Shown here piece after piece: positions 23,515 through 61,910 of a DNA stretch of 64,000 nt. Positions within the stretch are counted from its first letter, which is position 1. Each line of letters opens with the position of its first letter. A program made the position numbers and the translations under genes. The notes under the pieces are model-generated. The model ran no database searches. It was not told the origin of the DNA and saw nothing but the letters and a program-made list of their open reading frames with translations. This stretch comes from Desulfatitalea tepidiphila (lineage in GTDB: Bacteria > Desulfobacterota > Desulfobacteria > Desulfobacterales > Desulfosarcinaceae), in assembly GCF_001293685.1 (NCBI RefSeq), contig NZ_BCAG01000003.1:434001-498000 (forward strand), given 5' to 3'.

Positions 23515-23934
23515 ACAACAATAATAATATTATAGCATGGGGCGGGAAATCGGAGTTGACAACGCTTCTTTTAACAGCCGAACGAGGCGATTTCCAGAAA
23601 TTCGTCCGGTTGTAGCACCGCCCGATCAGCATGCAGCTTTGAAATTCGTTTCAGTTTTATTTTACGACAAGGACCGGTATTTTGGCGTTTCGTAAGAAAA
23701 TATCCTAGCTTTTAGACCTTTAATTAAATGATCGGTGGAGAGTTCCGCATGCTTCGCGATTTATTGATAATCTTTCAAATCATGCAATCATCCCAGCTCA
23801 TGGATTCTTACTGAGTGCGATTCACGTCGGGTTCAATGAATATCGTTCACTTAGAATCGCCCACATCTATCTTTTGTGCTTGCATTTCAGGTACCAGGCG
23901 GATAGACAATCAGAGACACGAATTCAAAAGCAAA
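23515..23934. other. Gap between zinc operon and fluoride riboswitch
   Basis: About 420 bases, AT-richer than the genes around it, with no gene supported. It should contain the end of the zinc transcript and the promoter for the riboswitch transcript; no convincing terminator or promoter boxes were picked out. Confidence 0.45.
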
Positions 23935-23984
23935 GGGGATGGGGTCCCCCTGATAACCGCCCGGGCCGGGCTGATGACTCCTAC
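23935..23984 (+). promoter_or_regulatory. Fluoride riboswitch (crcB motif)
   Basis: The sequence carries the conserved parts of the crcB aptamer in order: GGGGATGGGGTCCCCC, then TGATAACCGCC, a short GGGCCGGGC stem, and TGATGACTCCTAC at the end. Fluoride binding stabilises the pseudoknotted fold. Downstream, GGCGGTT (24027-24033), which runs directly into a T6 stretch (24032-24037), is exactly complementary to the aptamer bases AACCGCC (23955-23961). A fluoride-free terminator structure is therefore possible. CTACCG/CGGTAG (23981-23986 and 23998-24003) can form a further stem. It controls a transcript that includes crcB at 24768. Confidence 0.92.
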
Positions 23985-24082
23985 CGGAACCATGGTGCGG
24001 TAGGATGTTGCTGTGAACGGCCCGCAGGCGGTTTTTTCGTGGCCGCAGCGCATGGCTTTTCCCAAATGGAGCGCGTGGCGAA

Positions 24083-27624: not shown

Positions 27625-28986
27625 TTATCCTGACTGCCGGATCATTCCGAGCCATTGCATGGCCGCCATCTGCACCGGGTCCCAGGGGCTGGAGAGCGGC
27701 GGTGTGTAAGACAGGTCCAGGTCACACAGTGCACCGATGCGCATTTCATTGTACAGGGCCGCGGCCACGATATCGATGCGTTTGGAGACTTCTGCGTTCC
27801 GGTGCCCCACCATCTGCGCGCCGAGAAGTCTTCCGGTGTGCCGGTCCCCGGTCAGTCGGATGTGCAGTTGCTTGGCGCCCGGATAGTAAACCTTGTGATC
27901 CCATGTGGTGAGGGCTACTGTGATCGGATCGAATCCCGCCGCACGCGCTTCGTTGTCCCGCAGGCCGGTGCGGGCCGCCACGCTGTCGAAGACTTTGACC
28001 ACCTGGGTGCCCAGGCTGCCCTGAAACTGGCACCGGCCGCCGAGCATGTTTTCGCCGGCCACCCGGCCTTGTTTGTGGGCCGTGGTGCCCAGGGGCATGT
28101 AGACGTAGCGGCCCAGGATGCGATGCCAGGTGTGAACGCAATCCCCGGCCGCCCAGATATCCGCAAGCCGAGTGGCCATGGTGCGGTCCACCTCGATGGC
28201 CCCGCCGACGCCGAGGTCGATGCCGGCGGTATTAGCCAGTTCGACGGACGGTTTGGCCCCGGCGGCGACCACGACCATGTCCGCGGCCACGGCTTGGCCG
28301 GAGGCGACGCGCACGAGAAGCCTGCCATCCGAACGTTCGATGCGCTCGACGGCATGGCCTGTCAAGATTTCTACACCCCTGGAGCCGAGTTCGGCATGGA
28401 TCAGTCGCCCCAGTTCCGGATCTAAAGTGGTGAGCACCTGCGGGGCAAATTCGATCAGGGTCACCCGCACGCCTTTATGCGTCAGCGCATCGGCCATCTC
28501 CAGGCCGATATAGCCGCCGCCGATCACTACCGCCGTTTTTGGGTTGTGGTCCTCCATGAATCGTTTGACGGAGAAACTGTCCGCCATCCAGCGCAGGAAA
28601 AAGACCCCGGGAAGATCGATCCCTGCAATGGGTGGCCGCGCCGATTCAGCGCCGGTGCCGATAAGAAGTTTACTGTAAGGGATCCGCATCGAGGCGCCCT
28701 GGGATGACTGCACGCCCACCGTCTTTGTCTTCGGATCGATGTCCAGCGCGCGGTGGTCCAGAAGCAGGTCGATGCCGTGTTGGGCGATCTCCTCGGCTGT
28801 GCGGTGGGCCAAGGTTCGCCAGTCGGCCACTTCGCCGCTCAGATAGAACGGCAGGCCGCAAATGCTGAAGTTGGGGTAGGCGTCGGCCACGACCACGGTC
28901 ACGTCGGCCCGGCCGTCGATCTCTTTAATGCGCAGGGCGGCGCTGATGCCCGCGTCGCTGCCGCCGATGATGAGCAGTTTGTTCAT
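27625..28986 (-). CDS. FAD-dependent pyridine nucleotide-disulfide oxidoreductase (CoA-disulfide reductase-like), ars operon
   Basis: 453-residue flavoprotein. ATG 28986 follows AAAGGATGGGAA and directly gives the FAD-binding KLLIIGGSDAGISAALRI. The redox-active Cys43 is in YPNFSICGLPFYLSG; NADH-binding motif TAVVIGGGYIGLEMADAL; second FAD motif DIWAAGDCVHTWH; the C-terminal dimerisation domain is complete. Single-Cys enzymes of this group (CoADR, NADH oxidase/persulfide reductase) act on CoA disulfides, peroxide, sulfane sulfur or O2. It is the last gene of the arsR-permease-trx-acr3 cluster, 11 bases after acr3, so a thiol-redox role in arsenic resistance is likely. It is a paralogue of the probable selenoprotein at 51286, whose UGA aligns with Cys43. 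Confidence 0.88.
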   Translation of the reverse strand: MNKLLIIGGSDAGISAALRIKEIDGRADVTVVVADAYPNFSICGLPFYLSGEVADWRTLAHRTAEEIAQHGIDLLLDHRALDIDPKTKTVGVQSSQGASMRIPYSKLLIGTGAESARPPIAGIDLPGVFFLRWMADSFSVKRFMEDHNPKTAVVIGGGYIGLEMADALTHKGVRVTLIEFAPQVLTTLDPELGRLIHAELGSRGVEILTGHAVERIERSDGRLLVRVASGQAVAADMVVVAAGAKPSVELANTAGIDLGVGGAIEVDRTMATRLADIWAAGDCVHTWHRILGRYVYMPLGTTAHKQGRVAGENMLGGRCQFQGSLGTQVVKVFDSVAARTGLRDNEARAAGFDPITVALTTWDHKVYYPGAKQLHIRLTGDRHTGRLLGAQMVGHRNAEVSKRIDIVAAALYNEMRIGALCDLDLSYTPPLSSPWDPVQMAAMQWLGMIRQSG

Positions 28987-28997
28987 TTCCCATCCTT

Positions 28998-30188
28998 TCA
29001 CTGCGGTTGCCCGAACCATGCCTGGGTGCCCAGGCATATTTTTACCAGCATCAACATCACCGGCACTTCGATGAGCACCCCCACCACCGTGGCCAGGGCC
29101 GCTCCCGACGAGAGACCGAAGAGCATCGTGGCCGTGGCGATGGCGACCTCGAAATGGTTGGATGCGCCGATCATGGCCGCAGGCGCCGCGTCCGCATAGC
29201 GGAGCTTCAACAGGCGCGCCAGCCCATAGGCCAGCCAGAAGATGAGCATGGTCTGGATGAACAGGGGAATGGCGATCCACAGGATGGTGAGGGGATTGGC
29301 CACGATCACCTCGCCCTTGAAGGAGAAGAGCAACACCAGGGTGATGAGCAGGGCGATGATGGTAATGGGCGTGAGCACATGCAGGAACTTCTCCTTGAAC
29401 CACTTTTCACCCTTGGCGGCGATGATCCAACGGCGCGACAGGTATCCGGCCACCAGGGGCAGGGCCACGTAGATGGCGATGGAGAGCAGCAAGGCCTGCC
29501 AGGGGACCGGCAGACGCCCCACGCCCAGCAGGAAACCGCCCAGCAGGCCGTAGAGCAGCAGCATGGTGAGCGAGTTGATGGCCACCATGACCAAGGTCAG
29601 GCCGTCGTTGCCCTTGGACAGGAACCCCCACACCAGCACCATGGCCGTGCAGGGCGCGACGCCCAGCAGGATGCAGCCGGCCAGGTAGCTGCGCCACAGG
29701 GGAACCTCCAGCATCTTGATCCCCTCGATCAGCACAACTCTGCCGGCCCCGTGATTGGCGCCCACCGGCAAATCGAGGCCGAAGGGCATTTTCACGTGAT
29801 CCACGGCATCGGGGCCGATGAACCCGTAAAAGAGGGTCCCCAGGAAAAAGAGGGCGATGCCGTACATGGTGAACGGTTTGACAGCCCAATTGACGAAGAG
29901 GGTCAGGAAGACCGGCTTGCCGCTCTTGCCGGCCTTGATCACCTCGGCAAAGTCGATCTTGACCATGATGGGATACATCATAAAGAAGAGGCAGACCGCA
30001 ATGGGGATGGAGATGACGGGCGCCCCGTTGACCGAAATGGCCAGGCTGTCCAGGTAGCGGGCCACACCGGGTGCTACCTTGCCCAGCGCGATGCCGGCGA
30101 TGATGCAAAGCACCACCCAGACCGAGAGGAATCGTTCGAAGACGCCGGTCATTTTACGTTGATCGTCGAAAGGCTTTTTCGCATTCAT
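28998..30188 (-). CDS. acr3: ACR3-family arsenite efflux transporter
   Basis: 396-residue, ten-helix inner-membrane exporter of As(III) of the BART superfamily. Start at ATG 30188 with AAGAGGA upstream. Diagnostic parts: [18 protein letters not shown] in TM3, the TM4 substrate Cys region [20 protein letters not shown] with its Cys pair, and the Glu-containing [18 protein letters not shown] near TM9. The family is driven by proton exchange. Located between the mini-thioredoxin and the FAD oxidoreductase genes in an arsenic operon started by arsR. Confidence 0.95.
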
Positions 30189-51116: not shown

Positions 51117-51285
51117 CTGTGACCTGCGATAATCCCTTCATATCATTGACCGGGCATCATTATCATGCCTGGCGGCTTTTTTGAACCATTCCCCAACGGT
51201 TGGATGAAGATCCTGATACGCGGGCGGATGCGCCGGTCAGGGAATCGGATCGGTCAGGGCGTTGAATGGAAAAATGGGAGGTCTT

Positions 51286-52632
51286 ATGAAATTCGTGGTC
51301 ATCGGCGGCGATGCCGCCGGCATGAGTGCGGCCAGCCGAGCAAAGCGCAACGATGCGGGTCTGGAGGTGACTGTCCTGGAGCGCAGCACGACCGTCTCCT
51401 ACAGCGCCTGAGGCATTCCGTACAATATTTCCGACCCCCGGCGGGCGGTCGCAGATTTGGTGGTCAGAACAGCCGACGTATTTCGTAAAAAATCGGGCAT
51501 CGACGTGCGGACCGAACATCAGGTCGAGCACATCGACCTGTCGGAAGGTCTCGTGAGCGGGCAAACCCGCGAGGGCAAAAGGTTCGAGCTGCCGTTCGAT
51601 CGTCTATTGATCGCCACAGGCGCGGATCCCATCGTTCCGGCCCGGCCCGGTTTCGATTTGCCCGGCGTGATGGTGGTGAAAACCCTTGACGATGCCCAGG
51701 CGATCAAAGAGCGCATCACTTCACACCCGGTCAAGCGTGCGGTGATACTGGGCATGGGCTACATCGCCATGGAGATGGCCGAGGCCTTGCGGGAACGCGG
51801 CATCGAGGTGGCCATGGCCAAGCCGCGTGCCCGGTTGTTGCCCTGGCTGCCCGAAGAACTGGCCCAGCGTGTCGGCGAGGAGTTGGCGGCCCACCAGGTG
51901 GCCCGCCACACCGACTTTTCCGTGGATCACATCGAGGAACGCGGCAACCATCTGGCGGCCGTAAGTGCATCCGGTGATAGGTTGGAGGCCGACCTGGTGG
52001 TCGTGGCCATCGGCGTGACCCCCAACAGCCGGCTGGCCAGGGATGCCGGTCTGGCATTGGGTCCGTCCGATGCCATTGCCGTGGATCGGCAGATGCGCAC
52101 CTCGGACGATCGGATCTATGCGGCCGGTGATTGCGCCGACGCTTTTCATGTGGTCACCGGGGGGCGCGTCTGGATCCCGTTGGCGTTGCGTGCCAATCGC
52201 GCTGGATGGGCCGTGGCGGACCACCTGTGCGGCCGCGAGGTGTCGCTTCAGGGGGTTGTCGGCAGCGCCGTCTTCAAGGTGTTCGATCTCGAAGTGGCGC
52301 GCACCGGCCTGACCGCAGCCGAGGCGGCCGAGGCCGGCTTTGACCCGGCCACCGTCACCATCAAGGCCTCCTCAAAAGCCCATGCCATGCCGGGCGCATC
52401 GCCGATCCTGGTCCACATGGTCGGTGATCGACGCAGCGGCCGGCTGTTGGGCGCTCAGATGGTCGGCCGCGAGGGGGCGGCCCACCGCATCAATACAGCG
52501 GCCGTGGCCCTGCATGCCGCGATGACCGTGGCGCAGTTCTGCGAATCGGATCTGGCCTACGCACCCCCCTTCGGCCCCACCTGGGATCCGCTGCTGGTGG
52601 CGGCCAATCAATTGATTAAGGCCATGAAGTAG
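51286..52632 (+). CDS. Probable selenocysteine-containing FAD disulfide oxidoreductase (CoADR/NADH oxidase-like)
   Basis: The frame starts at ATG 51286 (GGGAGG 5 bases upstream) with the FAD motif KFVVIGGDAAGMSAASRAKR, then reads TTVSYSA, in-frame TGA (51409-51411, codon 42), GIPYNISDPRRA and continues uninterrupted to 52632: 448 residues if TGA is read as Sec. The family's single redox-active Cys stands in SxxCGxPY, exactly at the TGA, and aligns with Cys43 of the paralogue at 27625. NAD motif RAVILGMGYIAMEMAEALRE, second FAD motif RIYAAGDCADAFH and the dimerisation domain are all intact. Function: NAD(P)H-dependent reduction of disulfide, persulfide or peroxide. Starting at the downstream GTG/ATG would delete the FAD-binding motif and active site. 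Alternative: a fresh nonsense mutation. Confidence 0.85.
51409..51450 (+). promoter_or_regulatory. Sec UGA codon with possible bacterial SECIS hairpin
   Basis: Downstream of the TGA, GACC (51433-51436) pairs with GGTC (51447-51450), then after one mismatch CC pairs with GG, closing a GGCG loop at 51440-51443. The loop is 28 bases after the TGA, within the usual range for bacterial SECIS, and has a G-containing apex. The fit is by eye; bSECIS elements are loosely conserved. Confidence 0.55.
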
Positions 52633-52797: not shown

Positions 52798-52932
52798 ATG
52801 AAAAGCTATCGGCAAGAACTGTGGTTTGAAGTGCCGACACGGCGTGCCTTCATCAATATCACACCCCAAGTCGAGGCGTGCCTGCGGGAAAGCGGGATAC
52901 AGGAGGGGCTCGTGCTTTGCAAGGCCAAGTAA
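52798..52932 (+). pseudogene. yjbQ: 5' fragment of host yjbQ, interrupted by the element
   Basis: AAAGGAG precedes ATG; the frame reads [18 protein letters not shown] and is about 90 percent identical to the first 41 codons of the intact copy at 59539. At LCN the host sequence stops (after AA at 52921-52922) and element sequence gives LCKAK and a TAA. YjbQ (UPF0047) proteins have secondary thiamin-phosphate-synthase activity; this fragment lacks all the His-containing part and should not work. Its missing 3' part is at 61619-61910. Confidence 0.92.
52921..52922. other. attL core (AA)
   Basis: Host yjbQ reads CTTTGCAA up to here, then element sequence GGCCAAGTAA follows. The inferred empty site is CTTTGCAACGCCATG. 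Confidence 0.75.
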
Positions 52933-56237: not shown

Positions 56238-56529
56238 TAAAGTTTTATTTCCAGTTTTATGCCGATATTTAGCCCGTAAATCGTCATTCAAGCACCTACC
56301 AAACCGTCCTAACTGAATAGATTACGGCAAATTTATTTTTAGTTCTACGGAAAAATTCAACGTCCAAACTGTAAAATAAAATAACAGGTTCCCGACCAAT
56401 CGGCCTGACGGCCACGTGGCGGTGAACACAACCGGGGATAGGGTCGCTCCCGAAAAGTGGTTGGCCAACTCCCTCCACCACTTTCCCCGGCTTCTTCAAT
56501 TGGGAGAAATTGAAAAGGAGGGATTCAAA

Positions 56530-57942: not shown

Positions 57943-58148
57943 GTGATAACTATGTTGCGAACATAAAAAACCATGGAACCTATTGAAAAAACACAAAATC
58001 CCAATACCGTAGGGTGGGGGTTTGGTGTTCTCTTCTTTTTTAACCTATTTACCAAGTACCAGATACCTATTTACCGAGTACCAAAAACCTATTTACCGAG
58101 TACCCGAAACCTATTTACCGAGTACCAAAAACCTATTTACCGAGTACC
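57926..58148. repeat. Iteron array, replication origin
   Basis: ACCTATTTACCGAGTACC-type repeats begin at 58043, 58065, 58087, 58109 and 58131, spaced exactly 22 bases, i.e. about two DNA turns, so the Rep sites face the same side. A sixth, shorter copy (57926-57941) overlaps the end of rep, which could let Rep autoregulate. One iteron (58043) reads CAAG instead of CGAG. This is the classical design of iteron-type plasmid origins. Confidence 0.92.
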
Positions 58149-58192
58149 AAAAACCATGGAAGGTATTGAAATAACACAAAATCCCAATACCG

Positions 58193-59538: not shown

Positions 59539-59955
59539 ATGAAATCCTATCGCAAAGAACTTTGGTTCGAGGTGCCCACGCGGAGGGCTTTTATCAATAT
59601 CACGCCACAGGTCGAGGCATGCCTACGTGAAAGCCAAATTCAAGAGGGCCTTCTACTTTGCAATGCGATGCACATCACAGCCTCGGTATTTATCAATGAC
59701 GACGAAAGCGGCCTGCACCACGATTATGACCAATGGTTGGAAAAGCTGGCCCCCCATGCGCCCGTTGGCCAATACCAACACAACGTCGGCGAGGACAACG
59801 CCGACGCCCACATGAAGCGTCAAATCATGGGCCGGGAGGTTGTCTGTGCCATAACAGAGGGGAAGTTGGATTTCGGGACCTGGGAACAAATATTTTATGG
59901 CGAATTTGACGGCAGACGGCGAAAGCGAGTCCTGGTTAAAATCATCGGCGAATAA
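59539..59955 (+). CDS. yjbQ: Element-borne intact YjbQ (UPF0047)
   Basis: 138-residue full-length YjbQ, same length as the gene the element splits. GGGAGG precedes the start. Family signatures: [20 protein letters not shown] (His metal-type residues), [20 protein letters not shown] and [20 protein letters not shown]. It is about 90 percent identical to the rejoined host protein but its DNA differs at many third positions, including around the attachment core (AATGCGATGCAC instead of AACGCCATGCAT). It would restore the function lost by insertion. YjbQ has secondary thiamin-phosphate synthase activity in E. coli; the true role is unsettled. Confidence 0.93.
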
Positions 59956-59962
59956 GGGGGCC

Positions 59963-61654
59963 ATGATGAACGCAAAATTGTCAAAACCGATTATTTTCGC
60001 CCCCCTGGTTCGTGTGTCCACAGAGGGCCAGGCCAAGAAGGGCGAAAGCCTACGCACCCAAAAACAGCAAATTATGCGGGCCGTTGAGCATTTGGGCGGC
60101 ATCCTGATGGATGACCCATGGCGGTATAGTGGCCAGGAGCATGCAACGGAAAATTTCGAACGGAAAAAGCTGAACCAGCTATTAGCCGATTCGGCCAAGG
60201 GCATCTTCGATGCCGTAATCGTGGCCGACGCCTCACGGTGGAGCCGGGACAACTTAAAAAATGAAGAGGGGTTGCGCATCCTGCAAAAAAATGGGGTGAG
60301 ATTTTTCGTCGGCACCACCGAACACAACCTTTTTGACCCTACGGCCCGCATGTTTTTGGCCATGGCCGCAGTGATTAACCAATACCAGGCCCGCCTTCAG
60401 AACCAAAAATCCATAGACAACCGTATTGAACGGGCAAAGCGAGGCCTCCCAACCAGTGGAAAACTACCGCACGGACGCACTTTTGACAGATCAACCGGCA
60501 AATGGGGAATCGATAAGGACAAACAACAAAAGATAATTTGGGCTGCGGAGCAATACCTTTCGGGCGAACCGTTGCCGAAGCTGGCCAAAATCCTTGGAAT
60601 GAACCATGCCAGCCTTTGGAAAACTCTAACCCGCCGCAGCGGTGACACATGGGAAACGCATTACCGTTCCAAGGAGTTGGGAGTGGATGAAACCGTTAAG
60701 ATAAAAATCCCACCCCTGCTGCCACCAAAAACCATCGAGCAAATTTTAAAACGGGCGGCATCGAACAAAACTTATACGCACGGCCATCAAAAGTATAAGT
60801 ATCTGCTGGCGCGGGTGGTTTTTTGTGACGAGTGTGGATATGCGATGTTCGGCCAAACAAACATGCATAGCAATAAAAACCGCTACTATCGCCACCCCCG
60901 TGAACGAGAACGAGTGAAACAATGCAGCCAAGGCCCCGGCCTTTGGGTGCGGGCTGACGAATTGGACAAGGCGGTATTCAACAAACTTTTTGCCCTGGTC
61001 GGTGATGTGGCCGGCCTGGAAAAAGCCATGCTCAAGGCGCTGCCGGACACGACCAAGCTTGATGACCTGCTGGCCCAAAAAGCCACTTTTGAAAAAGAGT
61101 TGGCCCAAATCCAGACAGCGAAACAAAACCTGATTGGTGCCATCGCCAAAGGCATTTTAACGGACGAGGACGCCAAGGGCCAAATGGCCGATTTGAAATG
61201 TAGCGAGCAGGGCATAAAAAAGGCCATCGAAAACATTGACGGCCAGTGCCAAGGCATCCCTTCCCGTGAACAACTTCGCAGCAAGGCACAACTCATCACG
61301 CACACCCTAAAATGGGTCTTTAGACAATGGCATCGGGTCGACAAAATGAGCTGGACCGAACGCCGGAAATTGGTCGAAAAATTTTTTGATGGGGTGGACG
61401 CAGATGGACGTAGACTGGGCGTTTACGTAAGACGGGATGCCGCAAACGCTTTACGGTACACGATCCGCGGCACGTTGTATGCGTTCGATGGTGTTTTGGA
61501 CCCTGAAAGCGACCCGGACGACCAGGGGAATGAACCGCTCGAACATACTGAAATGTTTGTGAATAATGACTTCAACGAGGTGCCGTCAAACGGTGTTAAA
61601 CAAGATATGTCTGGCAAACGCCATGCATATCACGGCATCCGTCTTTATCAATGA
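59963..61654 (+). CDS. Large serine recombinase (integrase)
   Basis: 563-residue enzyme; ATG 59963 follows AAGGGGG, and a frame extension upstream overlaps yjbQ. Resolvase domain with nucleophile Ser19 in [40 protein letters not shown], then a recombinase domain ([40 protein letters not shown]) and a zinc ribbon ([20 protein letters not shown] with a later Cys in [12 protein letters not shown]), then a coiled coil ([20 protein letters not shown]). The gene runs across attR: the last ~12 codons (after SGK) come from host yjbQ in another frame. In the excised circle it would instead end SGKAK and TAA, the same codons that close the left yjbQ stub. Confidence 0.92.
61617..61618. other. attR core (AA)
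   Basis: Element sequence ...ATGTCTGGCAAA joins host CGCCATGCATATC. Only AA is common to both junctions and the target reading TGCAACGCC. Confidence 0.75.
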
Positions 61655-61910
61655 CGATGAAAGCGGCCTCCATCACGATTACGACCAGTGGTTGGAACGT
61701 CTCGCCCCGCATGCTCCAGTGTCCCAGTACCATCACAATGTGGGCGAGGACAATGCCGATGCCCACATGAAGCGTCAGATCATGGGGCGGGAGGTCCTGG
61801 TCGCCGTGACCGAGGGCAAACTCGATTTCGGAACTTGGGAGCAGATTTTTTACGGTGAGTTCGACGGCCGCAGACGCAAGCGTGTCCTGGTGAAAATCAT
61901 CGGCGAGTAA
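61619..61910 (+). pseudogene. yjbQ: 3' fragment of host yjbQ
   Basis: Continues the host gene from CGCCATGCAT (…[20 protein letters not shown]) to the end VLVKIIGE with TAA at 61908. Fused in frame to 17 element-encoded codons from an ATG at 61566 ([17 protein letters not shown]), so a chimeric product is possible but without the real N-terminus. The distance and match to 52798-52922 define the insertion. Confidence 0.92.

Follow-up and report, generated by a model that had tools for sequence, protein, structure and literature searches.

Since 2006, lists of bacterial selenoprotein families have included a FAD-dependent oxidoreductase related to CoA-disulfide reductase and NADH oxidase (COG0446/TIGR03385), with the motif UGxP, which was named 'NADH oxidase' in that year; its example protein is WP_011365774.1 of Geobacter metallireducens (PMC1794560, PMC9312934, PMC13188914). 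Characterised relatives that have a single Cys use NAD(P)H to reduce per-, poly-, and disulfides, and their Cys enters a mixed disulfide with CoA (PMC6026696, PMC7969121). The bacterial SECIS (bSECIS) model describes a hairpin with a stem of 4–16 bp, a loop of 3–9 nt with G in the first two positions, a distance of 16–37 nt between the UGA and the loop, and a minimum free energy (MFE) of at most -7.5 kcal/mol (PMC13188914).

The window analysed here, a 64,000-nucleotide stretch of Desulfatitalea tepidiphila contig NZ_BCAG01000003.1, contains a gene of this type with a TGA codon at the redox-Cys position, and a Cys-containing paralogue:

51286..52632, forward strand: predicted selenoprotein gene for a 448-aa FAD/NAD(P)H-dependent CoA-disulfide-reductase/NADH-oxidase-like protein (Pfam, TIGR03385, PDB relatives)
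51409..51411, forward strand: in-frame UGA, codon 42, very probably read as selenocysteine (matches, in alignments, the redox Cys of PDB relatives and the Cys of 98 orthologues)
51276..51281, forward strand: ribosome-binding-site-like GGGAGG (read directly from the sequence)
27625..28980, reverse strand: Cys paralogue with a CoA-disulfide-reductase-like domain, 39% identical (profile and sequence comparison)

Reading of the frame bore out the earlier description of 448 codons broken solely by the TGA at codon 42 (context SYSA-U-GIPY); the frame ends in TAG, holds no second stop, and GGGAGG sits just 5' of its ATG. In alignments with the PDB relatives 6ruz and 3kd9, residue 42 coincides with their redox Cys (VSYGACGLPY, VSHAPCGIPY), in agreement with the proposal that the TGA occupies the active-Cys position of the family. 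The alignment with Cys-43 of the paralogue could also be reproduced, provided that residues of the paralogue frame (27625–29403, reverse strand) are counted from its internal Met (context NFSI-C-GLPF).

The assembly containing the gene (5.6 Mb, 98% complete) encodes all of the components sought, namely SelA, SelB, SelD, and a tRNA-Sec (73 bits, UCA anticodon). SelD itself has a single in-frame TGA (KGAG-U-ASKL) at the N-terminal position where it is usually found, followed by a hairpin, CCAGG-GGA-CCTGG, whose GGA triloop lies 20 nt past the UGA. Because SelA, SelB, tRNA-Sec, and a TGA-containing SelD are all present in the genome, we conclude that the organism decodes Sec.

To follow codon 42 among relatives, we used 60 related genomes plus further fetched loci and counted distinct orthologues by their codon 42 state; the sequences share ancestry, and the counts are therefore non-independent. 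Within the Desulfatitalea-like genus, 9 of 11 genomes, that of the window included, have the TGA form, and the remaining two lack an orthologue. Across the fetched loci, TGA occurs in 21 distinct orthologues from several genera (57–100% identical) and TGC or TGT in 98; the first set of 84 Cys orthologues comprised 65 with TGC and 19 with TGT. Residue 42 is thus Cys or Sec in 119/119 orthologues. Outside the genus, all six listed members of the g13/f8 genus have TGA, while another genus mixes the Sec form (G178, L165) with the Cys form (G153, L166). U-containing homologues therefore exist, and close relatives keep TGA rather than the TGC or TGT that the earlier note had named as contrary evidence.

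The remainder of the gene appears undecayed, as previously claimed: none of the 21 distinct TGA orthologues, the window gene and 20 others, has a second stop. In six pairs, dN/dS was 0.10–0.27 on the 3' side of the TGA and 0.03–0.17 on the 5' side, and the downstream values indicate that this part is a working protein; by this sequence measure, the readthrough part is under purifying selection. If the TGA were instead a true stop, the locus would be a pseudogene or encode a 41-residue peptide, perhaps alongside a shorter product initiated internally. A TTG-started internal ORF is indeed present at 51457–52632, and TGA is also used as a terminator in orthologues of the group (L045, L046, L059). 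Initiation there, however, would drop the conserved N-terminal FAD-binding strand, and the occurrence of the same TGA in intact frames down to 57% identity, together with the dN/dS values, makes a genuine stop very improbable. A misread TGC, only one base away from TGA, is more improbable still and can practically be neglected, as the same TGA occurs in independent assemblies of many species and is followed by lineage-specific hairpins. The stop, pseudogene, and sequencing-error accounts were consequently rejected on the basis of the 21 TGA orthologues, the dN/dS ratios, and the independent assemblies. Correct annotation matters for these sulfate reducers, since gene prediction with UGA counted as a stop would truncate the enzyme or miss its N-terminal part.

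Two further observations concern UGA and UAG codons in related genes. A second UGA-containing paralogue (L123, G000:C1:910801-912129, complement) lies in the same genome; it is 31% identical, has the context FIVR-U-ALPHVVAG, and carries a hairpin with a GGTCT loop 21 nt past the UGA. At least eight other related genomes have this UGA form as well, while G006 and G009 have IPCAIPY. The Cys orthologue L142 has an in-frame TAG at codon 187, away from the active site. Pyrrolysine was considered for this codon and rejected: the position is off the active site and the gene retains its Cys, and the codon was left as a lesion or an error.

Downstream of codon 42, comparison with the published bSECIS model identified one further feature:

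51432..51451, forward strand: putative bacterial SECIS hairpin CGACC-CCC-GGC-GGG-c-GGTCG, with a GGC triloop at 51440-51442 (published bSECIS model and comparison)

This hairpin begins 20 nt past the TGA, and its apical GGC triloop is located 28 nt past the UGA; the 8 bp consist of 5 bp and 3 bp separated by one bulged C, with a folding energy of -11 to -13 kcal/mol. In these values (GGC loop, 28 nt, 8 bp, energy) it satisfies the published bSECIS model. The earlier note was right that a hairpin exists here, although it starts at 20 nt and not 22, and a GGC triloop fits better than the 4-base loop described. An Rfam scan of the window returned no SECIS match, the only hits being an int-alpA RNA and, elsewhere, a fluoride riboswitch (23926–23990, 61 bits).

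Strength alone was ruled out as proof for the hairpin, because dinucleotide shuffles of the window sequence fold equally well (z about 0). Against synonymous recodings the hairpin shows only mild strength: an equally good fold is reached by 14% of recodings of the window gene, by 3–18% for most orthologues, and by 73% for L071, a weak case with only 4 bp. The MFE threshold of -7.5 kcal/mol is reached in 12 of the 21 TGA orthologues. The significance of the hairpin lies rather in the fact that it is conserved and almost never seen in Cys orthologues. A GG-loop hairpin (3–4 nt loop starting with GG, at least 6 bp) was found in 20/21 TGA orthologues compared with 3/98 Cys orthologues, and the best SECIS-model energies averaged -8.5 and -3.5 kcal/mol, respectively (Mann-Whitney p 6e-8, uncorrected for kinship). 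Covariation in the stem is modest; two of the four lower-stem pairs show double substitutions, with both sides changed, and the covariation score was matched by 11 of 500 shuffles. The distance from the UGA to the loop depends on the lineage: it is 28 nt for Desulfatitalea, L067, and L159, 27 nt (GGTC) for L059, L085, and L071, and 20 nt (TCTGGC-GGN-GCCRGA) for L165 and the g13 group.

Another possibility is SelB-independent readthrough of UGA, with insertion of an amino acid other than Sec. The orthologues, however, have only Cys at this place, the Sec machinery of the genome is complete, and the SECIS-like hairpin is tied to the TGA forms, so that such readthrough is highly unlikely. We are therefore nearly certain that the gene encodes a selenoprotein with Sec inserted at UGA-42, as judged from sequence comparison. 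In the proposed mechanism, SelB with Sec-tRNA(Sec) would recognize the hairpin 20 nt 3' of UGA-42, and Sec would be placed where the CoA-disulfide-reductase/persulfide-reductase branch has its single flavin-facing Cys. The assignment of Sec to the redox-Cys position, which the earlier note had proposed, is strongly supported by the Sec machinery, the conservation of the TGA, the Cys orthologues, purifying selection, and the SECIS-like hairpin, and none of the contrary findings named in that note was borne out. We infer Sec insertion itself, as well as the substrate and the catalytic gain.

To examine the Cys/Sec exchange, an orthologue tree was built from which the Sec site and the SECIS codons had been left out. 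In this tree, the Sec forms appear at five places among the Cys forms; parsimony requires five changes, of which at least two are forced by well-supported branches. Constraining the Sec forms to one clade cost 83 log-likelihood units, with an AU test p of 0.055, and a single Sec origin in the subfamily is thus neither shown nor firmly rejected. Cys predominates among the orthologues, so the simplest reading is that Cys changed to Sec repeatedly, although some Sec-to-Cys reversals or transfer are possible. A more specific version, in which each independent Cys-to-Sec change was accompanied by a GG-loop SECIS arising at a position within the coding sequence that is particular to the lineage (28, 27, or 20 nt) and altering conserved residues (IADPxR to ISDPRR or LAAPER), is one that we consider evenly balanced. 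If true, the subfamily would represent a natural replicate experiment on the conversion of a Cys codon to a Sec codon. The residue two positions after residue 42 is Met in 84/84 first-set Cys forms and Ile in 10/14 Sec forms. Speculatively, re-initiation might be avoided by losing an AUG that lies three bases past the UGA.

The domain composition of the 448-aa protein places it among the pyridine nucleotide-disulfide oxidoreductases, with Pfam PF07992, PF00070, and PF02852, i.e., two nucleotide-binding domains and a dimerisation domain. It combines the attributes of CoADR/Npsr-type single-Cys enzymes, with FAD/NAD domains, the dimerisation domain, and, at the CGxP position, a single redox residue; a Pfam search gave no match to a rhodanese domain in the protein, which ends at residue 448. 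The best curated profile was TIGR03385, CoA-disulfide reductase, at 410 bits; since this falls below the equivalog cut-off of 578.8 bits, we do not claim membership among the true CoA-disulfide reductases. The best solved relatives are 6ruz, an NADH oxidase, and 3kd9/4fx9, the Pyrococcus CoA-disulfide reductase. Tyr-425 is present in 119/119 orthologues; this residue and the YAPPF motif show little or no variation in the subfamily. The HYYPG motif of characterised relatives corresponds to RAHAHPG in most of the subfamily ([RK]AH[ASG]HPG-like) and to KAHAMPG in the window gene.

These similarities suggest that the enzyme likely catalyses NAD(P)H-dependent reduction of a persulfide, polysulfide, or disulfide, and Sec-42 can be expected to perform the same chemistry as the Cys of the characterised relatives. 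By homology, NAD(P)H would reduce the FAD, and the flavin would hold Sec-42 as a selenolate. The target of the selenolate would be a small disulfide, persulfide, or polysulfide, perhaps bound through CoA, and the attack would give a selenenylsulfide that the flavin would then reduce. It is possible, though we lean away from it, that the selenoprotein does not act on sulfur substrates and is an NADH oxidase/peroxidase or another reductase with a substrate of its own. The name of the best PDB relative, 6ruz, the score under the CoA-disulfide reductase cut-off, and the replacement of HYYPG by RAHAHPG in the subfamily are compatible with such a role, and the neighbouring genes point to no pathway. 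Nevertheless, the CoA-disulfide reductase profile scores highest, 410 bits compared with 249 bits for the H2O-forming NADH oxidase profile, and the relatives of the hosts are sulfate reducers, for which sulfur substrates seem plausible. A sulfur-substrate reductase is hence the function we favour.

The neighbourhood gave no clue to the substrate, with a divergent hrpA-like helicase gene upstream and yjbQ downstream recurring in the Sec loci. In the window, the yjbQ gene 3' of the selenoprotein gene is split. Its 5' fragment (codons 1–43) lies at 52798–52926 and is followed by about 6.6 kb of mobile-element-like DNA (DUF2213, a phage baseplate-like gene, and the int-alpA RNA at 56431), which includes an array of 22-bp direct repeats (ACCTATTTACCGAGTACCAAAA-like) at 58042–58177. 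Beyond this stretch are a complete yjbQ copy at 59539–59952 and then the 3' fragment (codons 38–138) at 61605–61907. This arrangement resembles the outcome of one or two integration events near codon 42 of yjbQ.

Compared with known systems, the earlier proposal of a probable new selenoprotein holds as far as the selenoprotein is concerned; a new family is unsupported, because the UGxP CoA-disulfide reductase/NADH oxidase family has been listed since 2006. The window gene shares with that family (WP_011365774.1) the fold family, the Sec motif (UGIP in the window gene), and a deltaproteobacterial host, but it sits in a subfamily that is mostly Cys. A separate, more uniformly Sec-containing branch of the flavoenzyme family, about 40–41% identical to the window protein (L125, L126, L169–L178; SYSA-U-G[IV]PYY) is widespread in the phylum, with TGA in 16 of its 18 best matches. 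In the Pyrococcus horikoshii CoA-disulfide/CoA-persulfide reductase (3kd9, 4fx9; PMC6026696), the single flavin-facing Cys aligns with Sec-42; both proteins have the same domains and the C-terminal YAPPF motif, and neither has a rhodanese domain. The window protein differs in having Sec instead of Cys and KAHAMPG instead of HYYPG, and in scoring below the NCBIfam equivalog cut-off. The NADH-dependent persulfide reductase (Npsr) of Archaeoglobus fulgidus (6pfz) and Shewanella loihica (3ntd; PMC7969121) has a homologous FAD domain with its active-site Cys at the Sec position, whereas its C-terminal rhodanese domain is missing from the 448-aa window protein. The 21 Sec and 98 Cys orthologues of the subfamily differ little in length, and some share a genus (Sec in G178, Cys in G153); they form a good comparison set, suited to asking how Sec benefits a one-thiol flavin reductase and how a SECIS originates within coding sequence. 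The window gene is thus a well-supported new member of a known selenoprotein family, and what is newly found here is a mostly-Cys subfamily with Sec at five separate places in the tree and lineage-specific hairpins.
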